Assembly (NCBI RefSeq): GCF_027270735.1
Contig: NZ_JAPWIJ010000017.1
Coordinates: forward strand, 1-64,000
DNA: 64,000 bases
Reading direction: 5' to 3'
Source of the DNA: Rhodococcus ruber
GTDB lineage: Bacteria; Actinomycetota; Actinomycetes; Mycobacteriales; Mycobacteriaceae
Shown here in pieces: positions 24,179-30,600 of this stretch (position 1 is the first letter of the stretch; the number at the start of each line of letters is the position of its first letter). Both the position numbers and the translations under genes were made by a program. The notes under the pieces were generated by a model. It did no database searches. It was not told where the DNA came from and worked only from the letters and a program-made list of their open reading frames with translations.

Positions 24179-24410
24179 CCGGTTCTCCTCACGTCGAAAA
24201 TATGACCGTCGCCACTCGAGTCTGTCACGGGCGGAAATGATGCGCGGATGGGGGATGTCGTCGAGAAATTGGAGTCACATCAGTAACACCAGCCTCAGGC
24301 GTTACCAGATCGATGCGTCGTCGACACGCAATCTTGTAGTTCGCCACGCTAGCGTCCAGCGCAGCGAACCTCGCGCCCCATGTGACGCGAGTCGACAAGG
24401 AGGCTGCACC

Positions 24411-24722
24411 ATGATCGATCCCGGAAGTGACTCCTGGAACTACGTGGCGGCGATGTTCTCGTACGAATTTCTCGGTGGGGGAGTCGAATACGACACCATC
24501 GAGCGAATCCATCGAGGTGAAATCGACGAGTGGGTTCAGGCCTTGGCGCACTCCGGGCTGTTCGAGAAAGCCACCGTGTCGCATATCGCGGACTCGTGGC
24601 GAGCGGCACCGCGCCAGCTGTTCGACATGCTCGTCCTCGATGCGGACGAGATGACGGCACGACGATGCTCCCTGGCGTGGTCGTCACTCGATCGGCTGGC
24701 TCCACTGGCCCGCCTGGGTTGA
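24411..24722 (+). CDS. Small protein of unknown family, paralogue of the one at 30274
   Basis: 103 residues; I know no family for it. The ATG at 24411 is preceded by AAGGAGG, 7 bases upstream, a strong ribosome binding site. It aligns without a gap with the protein at 30274-30600 over residues 1-85; in 40-85 there are 22 identities in 46 positions, with the shared pattern EWxxALAxSGLFxxAxV, a Trp at residue 63, and DE...RR at 79-85. Residues V12, A14, F16, E19, F20 are also shared. Predicted soluble and helical, no signal peptide, no cysteine-metal pattern. It is convergent with the peptidase gene (7 bases apart). Role unknown. Confidence 0.75.
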   Translation: MIDPGSDSWNYVAAMFSYEFLGGGVEYDTIERIHRGEIDEWVQALAHSGLFEKATVSHIADSWRAAPRQLFDMLVLDADEMTARRCSLAWSSLDRLAPLARLG

Positions 24723-29692: not shown

Positions 29693-30273
29693 GAGAGCCA
29701 CAGTGCCCGATCACCCTGAACGCCGCGTGTGAGGAACTCGAGAACGCCCTGATGGTTTCTCGGTAACGTTTCGATCACAGCATCTTTCCACGGCCCGATA
29801 GCTGACCTCCTTTGCGAGGATGGTCTCTCGAGGAGCCGGTGCAGGTAGGTAAAGCGGGCTCAATGCGGGCGAGAGGAATGTTTTCGTGCGCAGTAACGGT
29901 CTTAGATCCTGAAATCGGTTCGAGCCTCGCCGGGGGCGGATGTCCGTTTCTCGACGGTCGATGTCGGTGCTCGGTGCGGCGTCAGGCCGTCTACCTGGAC
30001 ATAGTTCCGTCCTTGTCCCCGGTCACAGTAATTCGTAACGCGAACTATGACTTCGTTGCAAGGCGTTGATTGGATGGGTCCGACTGTGTGACGATAGTCA
30101 CATAGTCCAGCTCACCCAGGGCGAGACCGACCGAAAGGGCGTAGTTTCAGCCGCATCGGAAAACCGTATTCCGCCGTTACAGGCAAGTTGGTAACGATCT
30201 GAACACGGTCTTCGGACCCGTCGCAGGCGGGTATCGCCACGTATCGGACGCCGAAAACTCGAAGGAGAAGAAC
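29693..30273. other. 581-base intergenic region with one CRP-type site
   Basis: No gene here has a credible start. An open frame at 29812-30069 lacks a ribosome binding site and any recognisable sequence. The region may hold promoters for the divergent membrane protein and the small protein at 30274, plus the palindromic site at 30087-30102. The stretch around 29790-29900 is rich in short complementary words and might form a structured leader, but I cannot match it to a known riboswitch. Confidence 0.5.
30087..30102. promoter_or_regulatory. Perfect CRP/GlxR-type binding site
   Basis: TGTGACGATAGTCACA matches TGTGA-N6-TCACA exactly, the consensus of E. coli CRP and of the actinobacterial CRP/GlxR regulators. 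It is 171 bases before the start of the small protein gene at 30274. The match is seen; binding by a cAMP-responsive regulator is inferred. Confidence 0.6.
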
Positions 30274-30600
30274 ATGACCGCAATGTCTCAGGGACAGCTC
30301 GATATGGTCCGCGCGTTCTTTTGCAACGAGTTCCAAGCGGACTCGCTCGATCGGTCCGTCATGCCCGAACCTACCGCCGACGCCGTGAGCGAGTGGATCC
30401 ATGCGTTGGCCACCAGCGGACTCTTCGCCCCGGCCGAGGTGCACAATATTTCGTCGGTCTGGAACGCGGAACCGGACGCACTGGTTGCTTTGCTTGTCGG
30501 TGAAGTGGACGAGATTGCCGTCAGGCGTCACGGTGCGTCGGTGCCTGCAGCCGCGATCGCTACTCCGGCGCTGATCTCGGCCTTCGAACGCGCCAGCTGA
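30274..30600 (+). CDS. Small protein of unknown family, paralogue of the one at 24411
   Basis: 108 residues; no family recognised. AAGGAGAAG lies 5-6 bases before the ATG. Over its first 85 residues it aligns without gaps to the 103-residue protein at 24411: EWIHALATSGLF at 40-51, V56, I59, W63, A65, P67, LV at 74-75, DE at 79-80 and RR at 84-85 are shared. A single Cys (17) and no signal peptide. A perfect CRP-type site stands upstream (30087-30102), suggesting carbon- or cAMP-linked control of this copy only. A small regulatory or stress protein is possible but unproven. Confidence 0.75.
   Translation: MTAMSQGQLDMVRAFFCNEFQADSLDRSVMPEPTADAVSEWIHALATSGLFAPAEVHNISSVWNAEPDALVALLVGEVDEIAVRRHGASVPAAAIATPALISAFERAS

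Follow-up and report, generated by a model that had tools for sequence, protein, structure and literature searches.

The described systems closest to the genes considered here are the MtrA regulon of mycobacteria, the ClpX C-motif-1 substrates, and the DUF5997 (PF19460) family. Proteins carrying an ssrA tag are ClpX C-motif-1 substrates and end in LAA, and DUF5997 is a small actinobacterial protein of unknown function. For MtrA, PMC6265350 names ripA, rpf, ftsI, dacB1, and wag31 among the mycobacterial regulon genes and gives the MtrA box as a degenerate direct repeat, cG(T/A)nA(C/T)c, with a separation of four bases.

In the 64,000-nucleotide stretch of Rhodococcus ruber DNA analyzed here (the window), a small gene, P1, resembles the MtrA regulon in having upstream GTnAC direct repeats spaced by 4 nt, and some of the genes that share the box or neighbor other copies of the family encode wall enzymes. 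It differs in that it is no known member of that regulon, and no mycobacterial homolog of P1 was identified in this analysis. Like the ClpX substrates, P1 and its relatives have a short nonpolar C-terminal end after a variable linker, but these ends are YA, RAS, LG, FG, or IA rather than LAA. The resemblance to DUF5997 consists of a weak in-register match and of DUF5997 genes lying near relatives of P2, the paralog of P1; the match falls below all significance cutoffs, and the range of DUF5997 extends to further families of the class (37 of 197 genomes), in which the P1/P2 family was not found.

Two paralogous genes under purifying selection

The two genes and their ribosome binding sites (RBS) are as follows.

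24411 to 24722, forward strand: P1, stop codon included; 103 residues, acidic, predicted all-helical, founding member of the family (open reading frame, RBS, paralogy, dN/dS, 37 of 37 genomes)
24397 to 24403, forward strand: RBS of P1, AAGGAGG (sequence; conserved in orthologs)
30274 to 30600, forward strand: P2, paralog of P1, stop codon included; 108 residues (open reading frame, paralogy, dN/dS)
30262 to 30267, forward strand: RBS of P2, AAGGAG (sequence; conserved in the upstream alignment)

An earlier note on this DNA had proposed P1 as a 103-residue gene with a strong RBS, and the open reading frame bears this out: AAGGAGG lies 7 nt before the ATG at 24411, and the start codon and a GGAGG-type RBS are kept in the 30 P1 orthologs read. 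The 22 identities in 46 residues that it reported between P1 and P2 (residues 40 to 85, ungapped) are exact, and 28 of 85 positions are identical over residues 1 to 85. The ungapped BLOSUM62 score was 120 versus a maximum of 50 among 2,000 shuffles, none of which was as good, and BLASTP gave an E value of 8e-15. When the 5.86-Mb genome holding the window was searched, P1 found P2 at an E value of 3e-9 (next match, 0.03) and P2 found P1 at 5e-9, with no credible family member beyond these two. The label of a two-member family therefore fits this genome but not the family as a whole, which has many members in other genomes.

Selection on both copies, also claimed earlier, was evident from Nei-Gojobori dN/dS ratios of 0.066 to 0.093 for six close P1 pairs and 0.11 to 0.20 for five P2 pairs. 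Three more-distant P1 pairs gave 0.19 to 0.25, and a fourth was saturated. Purifying selection on P1 is strong, and P1 and P2 are both real, constrained genes. P1 is flanked by an FAD-linked oxidase gene on one side and a peptidase-E-like gene on the other, with pntAB and a HIT-type gene near (all named by eye).

Distribution and copy number

Relatives of both P1 and P2 are present in all 37 genomes of the window's genus. They lie about 6 to 7 kb apart in 30 of these and on other contigs or at a distance in the remaining 7 (G001, G002, G005, G011, G012, G016, and G035). Of 301 sampled genomes from the window's GTDB family, 107 had members, spread over 13 of 31 genera. The order sample yielded 14 of 397 genomes, all of the same GTDB family, and the phylum sample yielded strong matches in 3 of 296 genomes, again only from that family; one further phylum-sample match (E value, 0.0099) was taken as chance. 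The family thus appears to be lineage restricted and was not convincingly found outside its GTDB family. The named matches are from Rhodococcus, Rhodococcoides, and Prescottella (22 loci).

The highest copy number, eight, belongs to G248, a large genome from a related genus. Family copies are found on 11 plasmid records, all from Rhodococcus, of which 8 are typed as mobilizable; the copy on pRHL2 carries the annotation "hypothetical protein." The pRHL1 record has three family places, two of them nearly identical (L119 and L120) with similar flanks, and G248:C2 and G248:C3 are listed together with the plasmid-borne copies. At about 102027 to 102688 of G056:C2 (L166), members of 108 and 83 residues lie in tandem, the only such pair in the loci read. 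A phage origin of P1 was set aside, as P1 matched none of 50,697 phage records.

A tree of 67 members resolved into P1 proteins, mostly syntenic; P2 proteins, confined as a group to the window's genus; and dispersed copies (P3) that are expanded in genus g23. The window's P2 groups with the P2-type genes of G001, G011, G016, and G035 (97/88), which are weakly joined among themselves (85/57). Many forks are unresolved because the alignment has only 105 columns. Locus L136, missed by the gene picker, is absent from the tail, tree, and upstream sets, and L103, L104, L112, L120, and L129 were dropped as near copies from the alignment and hence from the tree and tail sets.

Family status and predicted structure

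Neither P1 nor P2 matched anything above cutoff in Pfam, NCBIfam, PHROGs, or PADLOC. Both gave zero rows with Pfam and PADLOC, and P1 gave chance-level rows with NCBIfam (E value, 0.12) and PHROGs (E value, 0.3). Among 47 diverse members, the best E values were 0.01 (Pfam) and 0.021 (NCBIfam), each in one or two members. None of the searched libraries contains the family, which, as far as these comparisons reach, is undescribed; the earlier note had placed it in no named family, in agreement with this result and with the lack of a credible sequence or fold match in the PDB. Literature queries by word and by one locus tag found nothing on the family, so its absence in print is weakly tested.

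Members have an acidic, predicted all-helical core, then a variable linker, and then a conserved C-terminal end. Residues W41, G49, W63, P67, D79, and R85 (P1 numbering) are invariant in the 47 diverse members. The pI is 4.7 for P1 and 4.4 for P2 and ranges from 4.05 to 6.06 (median, 4.56) in 67 members. The AlphaFold model of P1 has six helices and helices only (mean pLDDT, 81; pTM, 0.72); that of P2 is likewise helices only, with a core of four main helices, block means of 79 to 95 over residues 1 to 70, and a low-scoring tail. No Foldseek match to either model had an E value under 1.9. In a second fold comparison, 8 of 97 chains reached a Z score of 2 or more with the P1 model (best, 2.7), and none was Esx. 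A missing fold match is not evidence of a new fold.

Several leads were dropped. Designed helical repeats in the PDB (profile search; E value, 1e-7) were put down to composition, the Keap1 BTB domain from the profile search had an E value above 1 and was taken as chance, and designed SAKe proteins (phmmer with P1) matched over only 15 residues. A toxin-antitoxin pair, which would form a two-gene operon, was rejected; no conserved operon partner was noticed in the neighborhoods read (by eye). Neither protein has a transmembrane-like stretch (best 19-residue hydropathy, 0.63 for P1 and 1.23 for P2), and no RNA family scored above its gathering score between 23000 and 32000 of the window. The DNA-binding helix suggested in the earlier note finds no support in the acidic pI of the two proteins, and no helix-turn-helix family matched above cutoff.

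Regulatory sites upstream of P1

Three elements stand out upstream of P1.

24274 to 24287, forward strand: MtrA-like direct-repeat box GTCAC-ATCA-GTAAC (GTCACATCAGTAAC) (conservation; motif as in PMC6265350)
24301 to 24316, forward strand: GTTACCaGATCGATGC, conserved extension of the array (footprint in the upstream alignment)
24350 to 24355, forward strand: TAGCGT, -10-like element with a putative promoter role (footprint in 18 aligned upstream regions)

The GTnAC boxes follow a 9-bp period with 4-nt spacers, and TAGCGT lies behind the array; this arrangement is conserved. Of 30 P1 loci of the genus, 29 have an exact double box no more than 250 bases upstream of the gene; in another set of upstream regions, the exact double box was present in 16 of 18. 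For the wider family (outside the genus and at its edge), it was present in 9 of 37 regions versus 3.0% of 470 control regions, which include the family's own genes and so form a conservative control, and it was absent from the other 28 regions, including all four tested of genus g22. These motif counts, like the tail counts below, treat related rows as independent, so the probabilities are not independent. In the window itself, GTNACN4GTNAC occurs four times versus 1.24 expected, and 5 of 100 shuffles reached four; this is only mildly above chance. One of the four sites lies upstream of P1 and one upstream of P2.

Among the 30 P1 loci of the genus, 8 have a triple array before P1; no choice of genomes enters this count. 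In 14 genomes hand-picked after some arrays had been seen, the triple array was counted at 31 places and the reversed pattern at 10. Eight of those 31 triple arrays precede P1 at a distance of 250 bases or less, versus an expectation of about 0.0014. Because the selection of these genomes came after their upstream regions were read, 8 of 14 cannot be taken as an unbiased rate, and the rarity of the array elsewhere is the point. The window's own genome has no triple array, its P1 having the double box only, and it contains GTCACANNNGTAAC twice versus three times for the reversed control, i.e., no more commonly. In G110, P1 is the sole gene directly downstream of the array, so that in this genome the box can be assigned to P1 rather than to the divergent oxidase gene.

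A GTnAC direct repeat with 4-nt spacing that is kept in orthologs is the sequence mark expected of an MtrA regulon member, and P1 carries it. GlnR-type sites likewise use GTnAC. MtrA is the most likely candidate for the regulator of P1.

Genes sharing the array

Triple arrays at places other than P1 number 23. Inspection covered 21 of these, in 20 regions; the remaining two are both in G140. The array lies within genes in four regions (L242, L244, L245, and L247) and lacks a clear target in two (L246 and L248). It precedes an Amidase_2/LGFP gene in L231 (Pfam) and L238 (alike by eye), with a cobalamin-type gene divergent at a similar distance, and a MecA_N penicillin-binding-type gene in L240 (just under the Pfam cutoff) and L239 (alike by eye). 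Elsewhere, it precedes a DUF218 gene (L234), a gene for a GH5-like exported protein (L237; under cutoff), a gene for a DUF4185 exported protein with a dehydrogenase-like gene divergent (L243), and a gene for a small membrane protein (L241). Several array-bearing promoters are shared with divergent metabolic genes. A single orthologous intergenic triple-array site between two membrane-protein genes recurs in six genomes (L229, L230, L232, L233, L235, and L236); its target is not clear.

In the window's own genome, the sole second GTCACANNNGTAAC precedes a MecA_N gene (33.1 bits versus a cutoff of 22). At about 671312 to 674325 of G000:C21 (L211), two penicillin-binding-type genes are adjacent, the first recognized by eye and the second assigned to MecA_N by Pfam, and the second has a fourfold GTnAC-like array in its promoter. 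Overall, an envelope theme is visible among the array-bearing promoters; MtrA is the presumed regulator.

Regulatory sites upstream of P2

The conserved sites upstream of P2 are of another kind.

30087 to 30102, forward strand: TGTGACGATAGTCACA, CRP/GlxR-type palindrome that also reads GTGAC-N4-GTCAC (conservation)
30139 to 30148, forward strand: GCGTAGTTTC, promoter-like element with a putative role in P2 expression (footprint in the upstream alignment)
30175 to 30196, forward strand: inverted repeat CGTTAC-N10-GTAACG (footprint; single occurrence in the window's own genome)

The palindrome TGTGA-N6-TCACA, which we take to be the CRP/GlxR-type consensus, has its single window match at P2 versus 0.04 expected. 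All 30 P2 loci of the genus (30 of 30) have it upstream without a mismatch, as do 16 of 16 regions of the other set, so that P2 carries the conserved sequence mark of a CRP/GlxR regulon. The GTnAC repeat is also fitted exactly by 8 of the 16 P2 regions, and the site reads better as CRP than as MtrA. The inverted repeat, conserved as CGTTAC-N9/10-GTAACG, lies downstream of the presumed P2 promoter; a regulon built on it was dropped, its occurrence in the own genome being single.

C-terminal ends

Both genes code for a conserved C-terminal end.

24714 to 24719, forward strand: codons of the C-terminal Leu-Gly of P1 (tail statistics)
30589 to 30597, forward strand: codons of the C-terminal Arg-Ala-Ser of P2 (RAS or KAS in orthologs)

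The end is conserved though the preceding linker varies in length and sequence. Ends of the form [LIVFYMSA][AGS] are found in 54 of 65 distinct family tails versus 92 of 677 neighboring proteins, and in 34 of 201 neighboring proteins of under 160 residues. The P2 orthologs end in RAS or KAS in 30 of 30 cases read, the P1 proteins of the genus end mostly in LG, FG, or SG, and many P3 copies end in YA. The conserved nonpolar end expected of a degron-bearing substrate is thus present, and the simplest reading is that the tail may serve as a C-terminal degron or a docking peptide.

Neighbors of other copies

Two dispersed copies adjoin a gene for an Rpf-type transglycosylase (assigned by Pfam in L128; L129 alike), and in five an Amidase_3 gene is found at a distance of one to three genes (assigned by Pfam in L121; L125, L171, L173, and L175 alike by eye). 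Other copies adjoin lipase-like, dehydrogenase-like, or transposase genes. The P2-type loci of G001, G011, G016, and G035 each hold a DUF5997 gene nearby, and in the first three an Asp23 cluster and a DUF1304 gene lie on the other side (Pfam calls on the G011 genes only; G001 and G016 alike by eye).

Possible functions of P1 and P2

Because of the conserved MtrA-like box, the wall and exported proteins encoded by genes sharing the array, and the wall enzymes encoded next to other copies, we favor an envelope function. In this view, P1 and P2 would be small cytosolic proteins, acidic and all-helical, that act as short-lived regulators (adaptors) when the envelope grows or the cell divides. P1 would be coexpressed with genes of the cell envelope, with the response regulator MtrA as its most likely controller, and P2 would more likely be governed by a CRP/GlxR-type regulator. 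Each would probably act by binding part of the machinery for wall synthesis or division and adjusting it, and would be rapidly removed via the conserved degron-like end. We hold this chain as a whole only tentatively. Against an envelope role, the P1 locus is metabolic, the box is often missing outside the genus, and the own genome lacks the triple array. An extended form, in which an ancestral P1 would belong to the wall regulon of an MtrA- or CRP-controlled, proteolysis-tagged family of envelope-growth regulators, with paralogs rewired to other signals and spread on large plasmids (up to eight copies per genome), is doubtful.

Alternatively, the proteins might be accessory to the carbon or redox state under cAMP-CRP/GlxR, tuning a metabolic enzyme with no direct envelope role. 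The perfect palindrome at every P2 locus read in the genus would fit this, as would CRP sites (with up to one mismatch) in 12 of 37 wider-family regions versus 7.9% of the 470 controls, the position of P1 between the oxidase and peptidase genes near pntAB, and the several copies on large Rhodococcus plasmids. However, P1 has no CRP site, even at one mismatch, in 18 of 18 regions, the array is kept in G110, where P1 alone lies directly downstream of it, and several array-bearing promoters elsewhere serve wall or exported proteins. We consider this account rather unlikely.

An acidic binder of RNA polymerase or of a sigma factor, acting like an anti-sigma factor or a transcription adaptor, would be consistent with the low pI and predicted helical structure of the family and with single genes that have conserved control sites and number up to eight copies; yet no family or fold matches, and no linked sigma gene was noticed in the neighborhoods read by eye, so that a function of this type seems improbable.

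The family could also be remotely related to DUF5997, as a shortened version acting alongside it or in its place. A DUF5997 gene lies close to the P2-type gene in all four P2-type loci read for it (L161, L162, L164, and L165), and the profile-profile comparison gave a score of 25.6 (single-comparison P value, 0.0009; probability, 23%) over about 39 columns, in register as EF..(I/V)..(L/I)....W(L/V)..L...G.F....V, versus 21.6 for the best of 46 other neighbor families. This score is far below the Pfam cutoff, the DUF5997 alignment is of low diversity, and two narrower family alignments lowered the score to 21.3 and 22.1. Only 1 of 25 members matched DUF5997 (E value, 0.11; the gathering score of 27 bits was not reached), none of ten P2-type proteins did, and the DUF5997 gene of the own genome sits on a different contig. 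Such kinship is, in our estimate, quite improbable. A response-regulator/oxidoreductase-like gene, recognized by eye, is also among the genes that these P2-type loci have in common.

A type VII (ESX/WXG100) secreted protein, suggested by a length of about 100 residues, the predicted all-helical structure, and EsxA as the top Foldseek name, is highly improbable, as that match is weak (E value, 1.9; TM score, 0.27; RMSD, 15.9), W-x-G is absent from both proteins, and reading the neighborhoods by eye turned up neither an Esx pair nor linked secretion genes.

Significance

The earlier reading of P1 is supported overall, and the wider family, the regulatory sites, and the C-terminal tail are added here. 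Small lineage-specific families are common, and because of this the surprise is limited: the searched libraries lack this family, and small lineage-restricted regulators are already known as a kind. To our knowledge, the way in which Rhodococcus and its relatives couple wall growth and division to signals is poorly known. Although missing from those libraries, the family is present in every searched genome of the genus and tightly conserved. An MtrA-type array is common to the promoter of P1 and to those of amidase and penicillin-binding-type genes, which would make P1 a directly testable new player.
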